DNA from: Qipengyuania pacifica
Lineage (GTDB): Bacteria > Pseudomonadota > Alphaproteobacteria > Sphingomonadales > Sphingomonadaceae
Assembly: GCF_019857205.1 (NCBI RefSeq)
Contig: NZ_JAHWXO010000007.1
Span: 1 to 64,000, forward strand
Length of the DNA: 64,000 nt
Direction of reading: 5' to 3'
A model generated the notes under the pieces. The model did not search any database. It was given only the letters and a program-made list of their open reading frames with translations, and had not been told where the DNA came from. The number at the start of each line of letters is the position of its first letter. Within the stretch, counting starts at the first letter, position 1. Made by a program: the position numbers and the translations under genes. This document shows, piece after piece, positions 57,293 through 63,937 of this stretch.

Positions 57293-57622
57293 TTGCGCAT
57301 CGAACTTGCCGAACATGCATTGGTGGCGCTCGCGATTCAAATCATCGTCGGGCTCCTGACCCGGAACTGGTGGGCGGGAGCGTTGCTTGCGTGTGGTTAT
57401 TTCATTGGGCGGGAATTGGCGCAGGCAGAATATCGGTGGATCGAGCAATTCGGTCATGGCCTCCGAGCCAACGCCCCTTGGTGGGCAGCGTTCGATCTCA
57501 AGGTTTGGACTAAAGCCGACCAGTTCGCCGATGTTATAGGGCCGATCATTGCAACGTCGGCACTGACGTGGGTTATGCTAAGACGTAAAAGACGCCCGCG
57601 CACCCAGCCGAGATGCATTTAG
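57293..57622 (+). CDS. Small membrane protein, unknown function
   Basis: This protein of about 109 residues is not recognised with confidence. It has a hydrophobic N-terminal stretch (ALVALAIQIIVGLLTRNWWAGALLACGYFIG), a middle part with tryptophans (YRWIEQFG, APWWAAFDLKVW) and a C-terminal hydrophobic segment (IGPIIATSALTWVML) with a basic tail. From memory, proteins of this look occur in phages and in proteobacterial genomes, but I cannot confirm this. The start is odd: AAGGAGGG (57285-57292) touches the in-frame TTG at 57293. The gene is 25 bases after the export lipoprotein gene and overlaps the next convergent gene by 4 bases. Confidence 0.65.
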   Translation: MRIELAEHALVALAIQIIVGLLTRNWWAGALLACGYFIGRELAQAEYRWIEQFGHGLRANAPWWAAFDLKVWTKADQFADVIGPIIATSALTWVMLRRKRRPRTQPRCI

Positions 57623-58662
57623 TCGGCTGGACTATCGTCCACAGGTCTACGCATGCCAACATCCTGCCACGGCTGTCCGATGGTCTTTTCGAAGCGATCG
57701 CGGAAGGACCAGAGCCAACCTACGCGCTTCTCGGCTATTCCGGGAATGCTCAGGGGATCCCCGCCCAGCCAAGGCAAGAACGGATTGCGTCGCGCATAAG
57801 ACCAGATCTCGACCCGCTCCCCTGCTTTCTCTGCTGCGCCGCGAGCGTGGAAACCGCCAGTATCTGCTACGACGAGCGTGTTCTCCGGCAGTGCCAGAGC
57901 CTCTGCCGGGGGCAATCCCATTTGCGTCAGGCCTGACGCATCGACGCGTGGCGAACCGCGGGCAGACAAGCGGTCGATGGACTTAGGGTCAGCGAGGCTC
58001 CTCTCGTGCTCCCATTCCAACCGCTTCGGCGTAAAGCGGTGCGAACCTCGAACATAGGTGAAAGGGCCGTCTTCTTTCGCAACCGGATTGAGGAACAGCC
58101 AAGCCTTCATGGAGGCGTGAAAGCTGTCGGCATGAAGAACCTGCTGCGGATCGGTGCCCCCGCCGACGAGGTTGGAAACGATCGTCTGAACGTAATGGAG
58201 CGGCGTAATGCGAAAGCTCGCTACGTAGTGGAATAGCGCGTTGATATCTTTTCTTGCCAAGAACCGCCTTAGGTCCGGAGCCGCCTGGAGCATTTCGGTA
58301 TCGATTGCGATGCGACGCGTGATGGCATCGCCCTGACGCATCTCACGGGCGGGCCATTCGGAGTGCAGGATAGCCTCGCGGAGCTTCCTGAATTCCGCCG
58401 CTGGAACCACGTTTTCGATAACGACGAACCCGTCACGATCGAATGCTTCGCGCCAGTCGCTACGCACATGTTTTGCAAGACGGCGCCTGCGCCACCTGCA
58501 CATCGCATCCGCAAAGCGTACGCGAGCGCGGTGAAGGCCCATTTGATTGAGGCGCTGCGACCCGATCAGAGGATGGTCGAGAAAGCTCTTCGCCGAGGTT
58601 CCCAATTGAAGAACGTGGATCGGCGCCAGCGCGATGGCCTTGGCTTTGTTGATCAAACTCAT
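57619..58662 (-). CDS. Phytanoyl-CoA dioxygenase (PhyH) family 2OG-Fe(II) oxygenase
   Basis: This 347-residue protein has a PhyH-type cupin fold. Iron ligands are H177-x-D179 (VLHADSFH) and H272 (GGFHARG), and R283 (GERVEIW) is a likely 2-oxoglutarate contact. The N-terminal 70 residues are basic and Arg-rich. PhyH-type enzymes in polysaccharide loci are mostly uncharacterised; hydroxylation or other oxidation of a sugar, lipid or nucleotide-sugar is possible. The ATG at 58662 was chosen because the frame above it only shadows kdsA. It ends 13 bases downstream of kdsA, in a kdsA-PhyH transcript. Confidence 0.85.
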   Translation of the reverse strand: MSLINKAKAIALAPIHVLQLGTSAKSFLDHPLIGSQRLNQMGLHRARVRFADAMCRWRRRRLAKHVRSDWREAFDRDGFVVIENVVPAAEFRKLREAILHSEWPAREMRQGDAITRRIAIDTEMLQAAPDLRRFLARKDINALFHYVASFRITPLHYVQTIVSNLVGGGTDPQQVLHADSFHASMKAWLFLNPVAKEDGPFTYVRGSHRFTPKRLEWEHERSLADPKSIDRLSARGSPRVDASGLTQMGLPPAEALALPENTLVVADTGGFHARGAAEKAGERVEIWSYARRNPFLPWLGGDPLSIPGIAEKRVGWLWSFRDRFEKTIGQPWQDVGMRRPVDDSPAD

Positions 58663-58675
58663 GCGGGGAAGACCC

Positions 58676-59521
58676 TTACACCTCGGCCCGCAGCGCATCT
58701 TTGGCGATCTGGTCGATGGCCATGAGTTGGGACACGAGGGATTCGAACCTCTCAAGCGGCAGCGCATTCGGGCCGTCCGAGAGCGCCGAAGCCGGATCAG
58801 GGTGTGCCTCCATGAATACACCGGAGACGCCGGCCGCAACGGCAGCGCGAGCCAGGAGAGGCACATACTGGCTTTGCCCCCCAGAGCGCGAACCCAGCCC
58901 ACCGGGCTGTTGAACCGAATGGGTCGCATCGAATATCACCGGGCAGCCTGTTTCCGCCATGATCGAGAGGCCGCGCATGTCGGATACAAGCGTGTTGTAT
59001 CCGAACGACGTGCCTCTGTCGCAAAGCATGAAATTGTCGGTTTCCTTGCCCGCTGCCGACGCCGCCTGCCGGGCTTTCGTAACGACATTTTGCATGTCGC
59101 CTGGCGCCATGAATTGTGCCTTCTTGATATTGACCGGCTTTCCGCTGGCGGCGACGGCGCCGATGAAGTCGGTTTGCCGGGCGAGAAAGGCAGGAGTCTG
59201 CAGGACGTCAACGACTTCGGCCACGGGGTTGGCCTGATTCGCTTCATGTACATCGGTGAGGACCGGCAGCCCGGTTTCGGCACGAACTTTTTCGAGAATG
59301 CGAAGCCCCTCGTCCAAGCCAGGCCCCCGAAACGAGTCGCCAGACGTACGGTTGGCCTTGTCGAAGGAACTTTTAAAAATCAGCTGCACATCAAGGCGCC
59401 GAGCAATGGCGGCCAAGGTATCCGCAACATGAAGAGAATGTTGTTCGCTTTCGATCACGCACGGCCCGGCAATCACGAATAGCGGGGTTTCTGCCGTTAT
59501 CTTGCGACCACACAGTATCAT
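58676..59521 (-). CDS. kdsA: 3-deoxy-8-phosphooctulonate synthase (KDO-8-P synthase)
   Basis: This 281-residue enzyme condenses PEP with arabinose-5-phosphate to KDO-8-phosphate. The start has AGPCVIES, where C21 is the metal-binding cysteine of the metal-dependent class (E. coli has Asn there). The other ligands can be assigned as H201 (DATHSVQQ), E238 (FMEAHPD) and D249 (SALSDGPN). [12 protein letters not shown] is the usual PEP/A5P site. Divergent from kdsD across a 215-base gap that I see as promoter DNA only. Confidence 0.97.
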
Positions 59522-59736: not shown

Positions 59737-60723
59737 ATGATCAACGATACAATAGCCTCCGACCACATGGTCTCCGCCCTCAAAACGCTCGAGATCGAAA
59801 TCGGTGGCTTGGAAGATCTGAAAAGTGCTTTCAAGCAGACCGGCCTTGGCGATGCTTTCGAACAGGCAGTGAACGCTTTCGCATCTGCCAAAGGGCGGAT
59901 CATTGTCACCGGGATCGGGAAAAGCGGCCACATCGCCCGCAAGATTGCGGCAACTTTCTGTTCGACCGGCACCTCCGCGCTCTACCTGCATCCGGGAGAA
60001 GCCAGCCACGGCGATCTCGGCGCAATTTCGCGCGATGACGTAGTCTTCGCGATTACATGGTCGGGCACGACACGCGAACTTGGCGACATCGTCAATTATT
60101 GTAGCATGTATCGACTGCCGTTGATCGTGGCGACCGCGAACGGGTCGAGCTGGGTCGGTGAAGCGGCCGATATCTGTCTGACCTTACCCGTCGTGCGGGA
60201 AGCGTGTCCGAACGAGCTTGCACCGACATCATCGACGACCATGCAACTGGTTCTTGGCGACGCGCTTGCTGTCGCCCTGATCGAGGCTCGTGGTTTTTCG
60301 TCCCACAGTTTCGGCCTTTTTCATCCGGGCGGTCGCTTGGGTGCGCAGTTGACGACGCTCGAGAAGGTCATGGGTACGGACGAGGCTTTGCCGCGAGTCA
60401 CCCTCGATGCCACTCTGCGCAGCGCAACGATCGAGATGAGCCGCAAACGCTATGGCTGCACCGCTGTGATCGATGCCGACGAGAAGCTCGTCGGCGCATT
60501 CACCGATGGCGATCTGCGCCGCTGTATCGCAATCCATGATCTCGACGACCCCATCGGAAGCCATATGTCACCGCGTCCGGTCACCGCCGAGCCGTCCATG
60601 CCGGCAGCACAAGCTCTGACCTTGATGAACGATAACGCCGTTTCGGTCCTGTTCGTAACGGACAGCGAAAAGCTGGTCGGCATCGTTCATATGCACGATC
60701 TGGTTCGACTGGGAATCGGCTGA
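59737..60723 (+). CDS. kdsD: Arabinose-5-phosphate isomerase (KdsD/KpsF)
   Basis: This 328-residue enzyme makes arabinose-5-phosphate from ribulose-5-phosphate, the entry to KDO. A SIS domain (about 40-175; TGIGKSGHIARKIAATFCSTG, HPGEASHGDLG, SGTTRELGDIV) is followed by two CBS domains (about 205-328; ending VLFVTDSEKLVGIVHMHDLVRLG). The ATG at 59737 is the family start; the open frame from 59557 has no likeness. Within a capsule locus this corresponds to KpsF. It is followed by kdsB 44 bases later. Confidence 0.96.
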   Translation: MINDTIASDHMVSALKTLEIEIGGLEDLKSAFKQTGLGDAFEQAVNAFASAKGRIIVTGIGKSGHIARKIAATFCSTGTSALYLHPGEASHGDLGAISRDDVVFAITWSGTTRELGDIVNYCSMYRLPLIVATANGSSWVGEAADICLTLPVVREACPNELAPTSSTTMQLVLGDALAVALIEARGFSSHSFGLFHPGGRLGAQLTTLEKVMGTDEALPRVTLDATLRSATIEMSRKRYGCTAVIDADEKLVGAFTDGDLRRCIAIHDLDDPIGSHMSPRPVTAEPSMPAAQALTLMNDNAVSVLFVTDSEKLVGIVHMHDLVRLGIG

Positions 60724-60767: not shown

Positions 60768-61577
60768 ATGGAAAGCCGCGATCTCATAGTCATACCGGCG
60801 CGGTACGGATCAACCCGGTTGCCCGGTAAGCCCTTAATGGCATTGGCCGGGCGCACTCTGCTAGAGCGTGTGATTGCCAATGCCCGCGAAGCCGCAGACC
60901 TTTGCGGGAATTGCGATTTTGTCGTGGCGACCGACGATGAACGAATTGCAGAACACGCCAATGCACTGGACGCGAGATCCGTCCTGACCGATGCGGCGCT
61001 GGATTCCGGAACGGCCCGGGCACACGCCGCGGCACTGAAATCGGGTAAGCCAAAACGCGTAATTTGCCTGCAGGGTGACGCTCCTTTCATTGCGCCGCAG
61101 ACGATTGGATCGTTGATAAAGATATTACGCGAAGGCAACGCGTCGGTTGCGACGCCGGTATATCAACTGAACTGGGCAAGGCTCGATCGGCTGAGAGCAC
61201 ATAAGCAGACCGCTCCCTTCAGCGGTACCACCTGTGTGAGGGATTCAGAGGGCCATGCTCTCTGGTTTTCCAAATCCATTCTGCCAGCAATGCGCAACGA
61301 GGCAGATCTGCGCAAAATGGATACATCGCCCGTCTGGCAGCACATGGGTCTATATGCGTACACGATCGAGGCGCTGGACTGGTTTGTCGGAAATTCGCCC
61401 GGAACTTACGAGGTCCTGGAAGGGCTCGAACAATTGCGATTTCTCGAACATGGTTGGAAAATTGCGACTGTGCCCGTTGCACCGCCCGAGCACGCGCTGT
61501 CGGGTATCGACACTGCAGCGGACCTTGCCCTCGCGGAAGAAGCGATTGCAAAACTGGGCGACCCTTACCCCGCGTGA
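60768..61577 (+). CDS. kdsB: CMP-KDO synthetase (3-deoxy-manno-octulosonate cytidylyltransferase)
   Basis: This 269-residue enzyme activates KDO as CMP-KDO. The family signature is VIPARYGSTRLPGKPL. ICLQGDAPFI and the C-terminal EALDWFVGNSPGTYEVLEGLEQLRFLEHG are also conserved. The usual QGDEPFI reads QGDAPFI. The ATG at 60768 was chosen, with AAAGGATGAGG just upstream; two further in-frame starts at 60747 and 60762 exist. It corresponds to KpsU of group 2 capsule loci. It precedes a histidine-phosphatase-like gene by 45 bases. Confidence 0.95.
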   Translation: MESRDLIVIPARYGSTRLPGKPLMALAGRTLLERVIANAREAADLCGNCDFVVATDDERIAEHANALDARSVLTDAALDSGTARAHAAALKSGKPKRVICLQGDAPFIAPQTIGSLIKILREGNASVATPVYQLNWARLDRLRAHKQTAPFSGTTCVRDSEGHALWFSKSILPAMRNEADLRKMDTSPVWQHMGLYAYTIEALDWFVGNSPGTYEVLEGLEQLRFLEHGWKIATVPVAPPEHALSGIDTAADLALAEEAIAKLGDPYPA

Positions 61578-61622: not shown

Positions 61623-62231
61623 ATGTTCGTCATCGTTCGCCACGGCAACACATTTGAAACCGGCGATCAGCCGCGCAGGATCGGGGCCCGCACCGATCTG
61701 CCCCTAACAGGGCAGGGCATTGAGCAGGCCCGGGCGCTGGGCAGTCATTTCGCCGCCATGGGATGGCAGTTTTCGCGCGTACTCGTTTCTCCGCTCAAGC
61801 GGACCCGGCAGACGGCTGGCGAAATCCTCTCGACGCAGGCGAATTCGCCCGAGCAAGAGTCAGCCGCATTTCTGCGTGAAATCGATCATGGTCCGGACGA
61901 GGACCAGCCCGAAGAGGTAGTCCTTGCCAGAATTGGAGAGGACGCACTCAAAGCATGGGAAACTGGCGCGGTGCCGCCCACGGGATGGAGCGTTGATCGC
62001 GAAGGGCGAATTGCCGCCTGGCGCGACCTTTTCGAAGACGCCGATCCCGGCGAGGCGACATTGCTCGTGACCAGCAATGGTGCGGCGCGGTTTGCATTGA
62101 TGGCGGCGCAAGGTCTTAGCGATGCAGCCAGCACACTACCTTCCCTCAAACTTCCGACGGGCGGCTATGGCGTCATTGGCTGCAGCGATTTGGGGCAATT
62201 ACAGCTCGAAGCCTGGGGAGTGCGCCCATGA
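61623..62231 (+). CDS. Histidine-phosphatase-fold protein lacking the second catalytic His
   Basis: This 202-residue protein has the phosphohistidine motif IVRHGNT (R6, H7), the second-arginine segment SPLKRTRQT (R60/R62) and the acidic segment LREIDHG (E86) of branch 1 histidine phosphatases. Where these enzymes have a second catalytic His (usually VTHGG or VSHGG), this protein has LLVTSNGAARF, so N152 takes the place of that His. It lies between kdsB and the Kdo transferase gene, and its stop overlaps the latter's ATG by 4 bases. KDO-8-P phosphatase (KdsC) is otherwise missing here, so it could fill that role, but this is inference. It might also be a non-catalytic or sugar-phosphate binding protein. 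Confidence 0.85.
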   Translation: MFVIVRHGNTFETGDQPRRIGARTDLPLTGQGIEQARALGSHFAAMGWQFSRVLVSPLKRTRQTAGEILSTQANSPEQESAAFLREIDHGPDEDQPEEVVLARIGEDALKAWETGAVPPTGWSVDREGRIAAWRDLFEDADPGEATLLVTSNGAARFALMAAQGLSDAASTLPSLKLPTGGYGVIGCSDLGQLQLEAWGVRP

Positions 62232-63937
62232 CGCCCCTTCCCACCCCTGCCGCGTCCAGGTTGCTGCGTGCCCCCCCCTTCCCCGGCCTGGCGAATGCCA
62301 TGTATATGTTTTCACCACCGCCCGAGGTGGATGCTCCGACCGGCGACACGCGGACGGCCTTGTTCAGATCCGTCAGCAACGCGCGTGTCGGGGGATCTTA
62401 CTGGAGTGAGCCAATCGCTCCACTTGCTATCGACATGGCCATCAGGCCTCGTTCCGCGTCCGAGGCAGCGGAACTGCGCGCGCGTTTCGGGGCAGAGAAG
62501 ACGATCTGCATCGGACACCCGCATGCATCCCCGCTGAGAACCGCCGCGCTCGATTACGGCGCAGATATCGATCCCTGGGCTGTCCTGTCGCAGACGGGGA
62601 AATTGGTTGCTCATGGTGATGATGAATGGGTCGCACTGGCCACCATCGCCGGTATTCACGTTCAAGTTTTATCGCCAGGCCGTTATGGCGAGCCGGGCGA
62701 CGATGGGGAGACACTGGAGTATAGGGCTGCGATGGCATTGGCCGAGCCAATGCGCGATCCGTTTTCAGATGGCTGGCTCGAACCGGCAAAAGCTATTGAA
62801 CTGCTGGCAGACTGGCGCAGAGTGATCGATGCCAATCGCGGCACCGCGGGGCAGACCATAGTCGCGGCATGCGGGATCAGCTGGTGGAAGCGCGAAGAAA
62901 TCCGCCGGTTCCTTTGGGTGCCAGGCGAACCTTTGAAAATAGCGCGCACTTCAGCGGGCGCCCTGGCCGTTGCCGAGGCGCGTGGCGGCGCATTGGCTGT
63001 CTGGCCATCGCGCATCTCAAAATCCCTCCTCGCAAATGCAGAAAAACGAGGGGTACCGATCGTTCGCGTCGAGGATGGCTTCGTGCGATCGGTTGGCCTT
63101 GGCAGCAATCTGGTGCCTCCATCGTCCGTGATTGTGGACCGGCGTGGTATCCATTTCGATCCCGGCCATCCGAGCGATCTCGAGACGATTTTGCAGAATG
63201 AGGAATTCTCGCACGACCTGATCGAGCGTGCGCGCCTGCTGCGGAAGACGATCGTGGACACGGGCATCAGCAAATATGCGCGAGCAGCGAAGCGAATGGC
63301 CGCGCAGGTCATCGGGACGCGCGAAGGAAGGATCGTTCTGGTACCCGGACAGGTGGAAGACGACATGTCGGTGCTGGCCGGCGGCGGCGGGCTGACATCC
63401 AACCTCGAACTGCTGCGCCGCGTCCGCGCCGAAGAACCCGAAGCACAGATCTGGTGGCGCCCTCATCCCGATGTCGATGCAGGCCACCGCAATGGCCAGG
63501 TCGTGGATGCAGATGCCCTGCAATATGCCGACCGCATCGTGCGTGAAGAAGCGATGGTTGACCTACTCGATGCGGTAGATGCGGTTCATGTACTTACCTC
63601 GCTTTCCGGTTTCGAAGCGCTGCTGCGTGGCAGGGAAGTCATCTGCCATGGCATCCCGTTTTACGCGGGTTGGGGGCTCACACGTGATATGGCGACCACG
63701 CCGCCGCGCAGGTCGCGCAAGCTCTCCCTGGACGAGCTCGTTGCTGGTGTGCTGTTGCTCTATCCCCGTTATCTCGATCCGGTGACAGGCATACCGTGCC
63801 CGCCCGAAGTGCTCGTGAAACGCATGGGTCAACAACAGATGCCCAACCGTCTTGGATGGATCGAACCGGTTCGCCGGTTCCAGGGACGGGTCATGGCGCG
63901 CCACCGCTCACGCGGGCAGAAGAAGGTTCACCGATGA
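62228..63937 (+). CDS. kpsC: KpsC-type beta-Kdo transferase (capsule lipid linker synthesis)
   Basis: This 569-residue protein has one complete KpsC-type module (about 230-555). It shows VRVEDGFVRSVGLGSNLVPP (about 278), LVPGQVEDD, WWRPHPDVDAG, SLSGFEALLRG and GIPFYAGWGLTRD. The first 230 residues resemble only the tail of the first module of E. coli KpsC (HGDDEWVALATIAG). KpsC and KpsS build the poly-Kdo linker on the lipid anchor of group 2 capsules. The start ATG at 62228 overlaps the previous gene (ATGA). Its own end overlaps the next gene as ATGA. KpsS is not seen. Confidence 0.87.
   Translation: MTPLPTPAASRLLRAPPFPGLANAMYMFSPPPEVDAPTGDTRTALFRSVSNARVGGSYWSEPIAPLAIDMAIRPRSASEAAELRARFGAEKTICIGHPHASPLRTAALDYGADIDPWAVLSQTGKLVAHGDDEWVALATIAGIHVQVLSPGRYGEPGDDGETLEYRAAMALAEPMRDPFSDGWLEPAKAIELLADWRRVIDANRGTAGQTIVAACGISWWKREEIRRFLWVPGEPLKIARTSAGALAVAEARGGALAVWPSRISKSLLANAEKRGVPIVRVEDGFVRSVGLGSNLVPPSSVIVDRRGIHFDPGHPSDLETILQNEEFSHDLIERARLLRKTIVDTGISKYARAAKRMAAQVIGTREGRIVLVPGQVEDDMSVLAGGGGLTSNLELLRRVRAEEPEAQIWWRPHPDVDAGHRNGQVVDADALQYADRIVREEAMVDLLDAVDAVHVLTSLSGFEALLRGREVICHGIPFYAGWGLTRDMATTPPRRSRKLSLDELVAGVLLLYPRYLDPVTGIPCPPEVLVKRMGQQQMPNRLGWIEPVRRFQGRVMARHRSRGQKKVHR

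Follow-up and report, generated by a model that had tools for sequence, protein, structure and literature searches.

A histidine-phosphatase-fold protein linked to KdsB, a candidate KDO-8-phosphate phosphatase of Qipengyuania pacifica and other Alphaproteobacteria

KDO is required for LPS and for many capsules, and its synthesis includes the dephosphorylation of KDO-8-phosphate (KDO-8-P) between KdsA and KdsB, the place of the phosphatase KdsC. The locus analysed here raises the question of which protein carries out this step in Qipengyuania pacifica. In the stretch of 64,000 nucleotides under study (the window), kdsA on the reverse strand is followed by kdsD, kdsB, a gene for a histidine-phosphatase-like protein (hereafter HP) and kpsC on the forward strand (Table 1). 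A first-pass annotation, made from the letters alone, had recognized the four KDO genes and the histidine-phosphatase-like gene between kdsB and kpsC. All of these assignments hold, as KdsA, KdsD and KdsB were each identified by both Pfam and NCBIfam models and KpsC was identified by Pfam. A gap of 45 bp separates the kdsB stop codon from the HP start, and the end of HP shares 4 bp (ATGA) with the start of kpsC, an overlap that the annotation had also described.

Table 1. Positions in the window of the KDO genes, of HP and of the presumed catalytic residues of HP.
Feature	Position	Strand	Remarks
kdsA, KDO-8-phosphate synthase	58676..59521	-	NF003543 416 bits, cut-off 242
kdsD/kpsF, arabinose-5-phosphate isomerase	59737..60723	+	TIGR00393 269.8 bits, cut-off 203.7; start inferred from family length, ORF open from 59557
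kdsB, CMP-KDO synthetase, divergent type	60768..61577	+	NF003952 224.6 bits, cut-off 193; tree; start inferred, ORF open from 60747
KdsB-linked histidine phosphatase (HP), candidate KDO-8-phosphate phosphatase	61623..62231	+	202 aa; ATG 61623, TGA 62231
RHGNT motif (R6, H7 nucleophile)	61638..61652	+	R6, H7 in 118/118 rows
R60, second phosphate-binding Arg	61800..61802	+	118/118 rows
E86 of LREIDHG, presumed general acid/base	61878..61880	+	118/118 rows
N152, in place of second catalytic His	62076..62078	+	Asn in 116/118 rows, Gln in 1, SHGG in 1
kpsC-like KDO transferase of capsule anchor	62228..63937	+	Pfam Capsule_synth 149.5 bits

HP matched the Pfam model His_Phos_1 with 90.7 bits against a curated cut-off of 21.7, as its sole Pfam match, and carries the motifs RHGNT, SPLKRTR and LREIDHG. 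The structure prediction proposed in the annotation likewise gave a histidine-phosphatase fold: the AlphaFold model has a pLDDT of 96.5, and its closest PDB structure is the phosphoserine phosphatase 4ij6 (Z 21.3, rmsd 2.8, 190 residues aligned), followed by 6s2r (Z 21.2), the riboflavin phosphatase 9mmh (21.0) and PhoE 1h2e (19.9). HP thus shares with branch 1 histidine phosphatases such as PhoE, CobC and 4ij6 the Pfam family, the predicted fold (Z ~20-21), the RHG nucleophile, the second Arg and an acidic residue, but its tetrad has Asn where the second catalytic His would stand, and the loop is one residue shorter. In addition, all 13 NCBIfam matches of HP fell far under their cut-offs. The best of them were CobC-like, and the alpha-ribazole phosphatase model TIGR03162 (CobC) gave 49.7 bits against an equivalog cut-off of 162.9. 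Because the tetrad is incomplete, HP is a variant of the histidine-phosphatase fold and no standard member. HP is no KdsC either, as no KdsC model was among its NCBIfam matches (E up to 0.001), including the HAD-type model TIGR01670; it would act in KdsC's place. The two would thus have in common the proposed reaction and the position between KdsA and KdsB, and they belong by sequence to different protein families, the histidine-phosphatase fold working through phosphohistidine and the HAD superfamily through phosphoaspartate.

The substitution of the second His by Asn, pointed out in the first-pass annotation, was confirmed by alignment, which adds the deletion of one loop residue: the canonical loop reads H-G-G-x-x-R and that of HP N-G-A-A-R. 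Note that the 118 rows of the residue alignment (Table 1) include 5 duplicates. The rows with Asn have the loop SNGxxR, one residue shorter than SHGGVLR in locus L188, which keeps the canonical SHGG; the Gln is found in L179, and both of these loci are linked to kdsB. Among the best 80 of 232 relatives, Asn152 was present in 80/80 rows by alignment, and a search with an SNG pattern returned 74/80, the remaining 6 being matches at wrong positions. On the other hand, the three other PF00300 proteins of the Q. pacifica genome keep His at this position, as read from their sequences. His is also present in 13 of the 16 ordinary relatives taken from a sample of the phylum; the pattern used gave no clear reading of the motif in the other 3. 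The structure alignment comprised the window and 49 of the 80 loci; in the predicted structure, residue 152 lies at the start of a helix that follows a strand. In a tree that combined 48 rows of the HP family with 3 further histidine phosphatases and left out the truncated L185, L188 was nested with three Asn rows (support 97/88); its position beside two of these had support of only 94/50. L179 formed a long branch. The His of L188 may therefore be the original state, in which case Asn arose repeatedly, or it may have been regained.

HP homologues are found beside kdsB with great regularity. After removal of 5 duplicates, 112 of 113 distinct homologues adjoin kdsB on the same strand, and in a contig scan covering the best 80 of 232 relatives kdsB lay just upstream on the same strand in 80/80. 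A sample of 149 genomes of the same family, the window's own included, contained 9 clear orthologues (E < 1e-50), all directly behind kdsB, and a tenth, weak match (34% identity) in whose locus no KDO gene was found. In a sample of the class, 30 of 385 Alphaproteobacteria genomes had an HP match (E up to 1e-20), and KdsB is encoded in every one of these 30. Besides the window's own locus, 28 of 29 class loci have kdsB alongside on the same strand, at HP identities down to 27% and with about 0.55 kb between the two genes in L173; the exception is L186, in whose 3.1-kb locus no KdsB was found. Among 299 genomes sampled across the phylum, 30 had a match, of which only four exceeded 200 bits, all from Alphaproteobacteria. 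The other 26 scored 68-87 bits, and none of the 16 loci of these ordinary relatives that were examined had kdsB within about 1.5 kb. Conversely, no HP-type gene was found in 40 canonical kdsB neighbourhoods, which were the highest-ranking TIGR00466 matches and not a random sample. The placement of HP beside kdsB is hence non-random.

The wider gene order indicates what HP is linked to. In Devosia, the order is kdsD-kdsB-HP-kdsA in 6 of 7 loci, and the contig of the seventh stops after HP. Two plasmids also carry the pair, both records annotating HP as 'histidine phosphatase family protein': pLA5 of Novosphingobium pentaromativorans has kdsA, a KpsF-type isomerase, kdsB, HP and a capsule gene, and pHbal01 of Hirschia baltica has kdsB-HP, with no kdsA or kdsD among the genes listed in 12.6 kb. 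In most sphingomonad HP loci among the best 80 of 232 relatives, HP is followed by kpsC, which was not found in the HP loci of Devosia, Henriciella and Hirschia, some of them short. WaaA, the LPS KDO transferase, was looked for in 38 HP genomes. It was absent from the 9 that belong to the window's family and present in all 29 others, which therefore presumably need KDO. Given the Devosia and Hirschia loci and this distribution of WaaA, the partner of HP is kdsB, or the general supply of KDO, whichever its use, rather than kpsC. The first-pass annotation had asked whether the Asn variant is conserved in other kdsB-kpsC loci; the conservation stands, and the kdsB-kpsC slot does not. In the Q. 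pacifica genome itself, no WaaA match (PF04413) was found and a second Capsule_synth protein is encoded at contig positions 68651-69571, 4.7 kb past the end of the window, so that a capsule anchor is the most likely destination of KDO in this organism.

Some other genes recur in these neighbourhoods. A PhyH gene (phytanoyl-CoA dioxygenase-like) at 57619-58929 on the reverse strand adjoins kdsA in the window, and relatives of it were found in 36 of 80 HP loci (best 80 of 232), in 4 of the 9 HP loci of the family sample and in 5 of 23 kdsB loci of sphingomonads without HP, as compared with none of the 40 canonical kdsB neighbourhoods, which are however shorter (~7 kb versus up to 20 kb). KDO or the capsule could be a substrate of PhyH. 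On pLA5, PhyH and aspartyl/asparaginyl beta-hydroxylase genes stand beside kdsA (L262 1960-4857). An HTH-HipA gene pair lies downstream in both plasmid kdsB-HP loci; it follows HP directly on pHbal01 (L261 6756-8431) and at a distance of about 3.5 kb on pLA5 (L262 11171-12984).

The first-pass annotation had noted that no HAD-type kdsC lies in the locus and that a kdsC gene elsewhere would speak against a role of HP in its place. None over the TIGR01670 cut-off was found in the genome (3.5 Mb in 54 contigs, completeness given as 100), where the best match, inside a 927-aa frame, scored 24.1 bits, the cut-off being 107. This is nevertheless a weak test, since most sampled Alphaproteobacteria are without kdsC regardless of HP. 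No KdsC over the cut-off was found across the family sample of 149 genomes, including the 9 with HP; the sole match above 30 bits in these 9, at 100 bits in genome G016, is, as read from the sequences, a fusion of a NeuA-type cytidylyltransferase with HAD, encoded next to a NeuB-type synthase, and was rejected. KdsC-like matches of 87-100 bits occur in four genomes of the family (G016 and those of L017-L019), among them G112 and G119, which have no HP and whose matches of 87-96 bits lie in frames of 400-430 aa. In the class sample, KdsB was detected in 334 of 385 genomes (E up to 1e-15; 273 over the family cut-off), KdsC over the cut-off in 10 and a KdsC-like match (E up to 1e-12) in 15; two of the 10 (L192 and L198, in frames of 383-384 aa) may be fusions too. 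All 30 HP genomes and all 15 KdsC-like genomes fall within the 334, and the two sets share one genome (G528, KdsC-like match in a 394-aa frame) where about 1.35 would be expected by chance. Since 290 of the 334 KdsB genomes have neither HP nor a KdsC-like match, some other phosphatase can serve, and the absence of KdsC alone proves little. In line with this, one study describes the absence of KdsC from Rickettsia and from bacteria of divergent groups and proposes that another phosphatase, perhaps a nonspecific one, acts instead (PMC5615194); in E. coli K-12, according to the same study, KdsC is dispensable. Another study reports no obvious KdsC in Granulibacter (PMC8036547).

Within the family sample, 26 of 35 KdsB genomes have neither HP nor a KdsC over the cut-off. 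Of these genomes with alternative kdsB loci, 23 loci were analysed (L050-L069, L079-L081), and tblastn found no HP-like gene in them. A gene between kdsD and kdsB in four of the alternative loci was considered and rejected, the one tested being a glycosyltransferase and no phosphatase. Among the canonical kdsB loci (L201-L240), 20 of 40 have an inositol-monophosphatase-type gene no more than 2.6 kb from kdsB; it was dropped as a candidate because the one tested is HisN (TIGR02067 309 bits, cut-off 275) and because the gene is on the opposite strand in 19 of the 20.

Taken together, the kdsB linkage, the Devosia order kdsD-kdsB-HP-kdsA, the lack of a KdsC over the cut-off and the invariant R6, H7, R60 and E86 support the reading that HP is a dedicated, non-orthologous KDO-8-P phosphatase of the histidine-phosphatase fold, probably with an altered phosphate pocket, to which we give a probability of about 0.72. 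This is one of the options that the first-pass annotation had offered, a non-orthologous enzyme with changed chemistry, and it is the best fit to gene context and sequence, on which it is built. The linkage argues strongly for a function close to KdsB, from which we infer the substrate and the activity. In the proposed route, KdsD would provide arabinose-5-phosphate, which KdsA would condense with PEP to KDO-8-P; HP would then move the phosphate of KDO-8-P onto His7, from which water would free it, and KdsB would convert the free KDO to CMP-KDO for use by KpsC and a partner in Q. pacifica and by WaaA in other hosts. The phosphate would be held by Arg6, Arg60 and Asn152, with Glu86 acting as acid/base, a role that we assign from knowledge of the superfamily, and Asn152 in lieu of the second His would offer a hydrogen bond but no charge.

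The linkage would, however, fit another substrate near KdsB about equally well. HP might be an active phosphatase of the KDO route that acts on a side product, on a damaged intermediate or, in a reversed order, on CMP-KDO-8-P after KdsB. HP indeed tracks kdsB more closely than kdsA or kdsD, and it goes with a divergent type of KdsB: a KdsB tree, for which every second canonical locus of the 40 was taken and to which L186 contributed no KdsB, had a branch with 100/100 support. On one side of it lay 41 of 41 HP-linked KdsBs, together with 21 of 23 alternative sphingomonad KdsBs; the opposite side held all 20 canonical KdsBs and the 2 alternative ones left over. The 21 KdsBs on the HP side whose loci are without HP nonetheless indicate that the divergent type does not need HP, and HP-linked KdsBs require 2 changes on the tree, so that a single clade of them is unsupported. 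Moreover, the Devosia operon takes in kdsA and kdsD as well, and dephosphorylation of KDO-8-P is the only reaction of the pathway that was left without an identified gene in this analysis. We therefore consider another substrate unlikely. Less likely still is the annotation's second option, a pseudo-enzyme that lost catalysis along with the second His and serves as a phosphate-sensing or structural partner of KdsB. The near-universal Asn and the shortened loop would suit such a protein, but all 118 rows keep His7, the two Arg and Glu86, and such catalytic residues are usually lost in dead enzymes; in addition, the residue varies, with SHGG in L188 and Gln in L179, and the kdsB linkage stays. 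That HP is an ordinary broad-range histidine phosphatase of the CobC or phosphoglycerate-mutase kind is most improbable, for although the fold is common and the top NCBIfam matches are CobC-like, 13/13 of these fall far short, and a chance location is already refuted by the linkage (112/113, against 0/16 ordinary relatives near kdsB and 0/40 canonical kdsB neighbourhoods with an HP-type gene).

A precedent for a dedicated phosphatase of this fold exists in Aquifex aeolicus, in which the phosphatase that riboflavin synthesis lacked proved to be a histidine family enzyme (9mmh; PMC12051542). Both proteins would thus stand at a step done elsewhere by HAD enzymes, and 9mmh is among the closest structural neighbours of HP; the Aquifex enzyme differs in having the full tetrad (R8, H9, R58 and H149), in its pathway and in sequence, with 17% identity to HP. 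In the literature searched, which left most subscription journals and all bioRxiv preprints outside, no link between a histidine phosphatase and the KDO-8-P step was found. HP is a concrete candidate for the published gap in the KDO pathway, for some of the Alphaproteobacteria only. It seems fairly likely that HP and its relatives constitute an alphaproteobacterial family of histidine-phosphatase-fold KDO-8-P phosphatases, unrelated to KdsC, having Asn (rarely Gln) for the second His and serving KDO of both capsule and LPS. If this is true, the histidine-phosphatase pocket, described with a fixed tetrad in PMC12051542, would tolerate Asn in a conserved biosynthetic enzyme.
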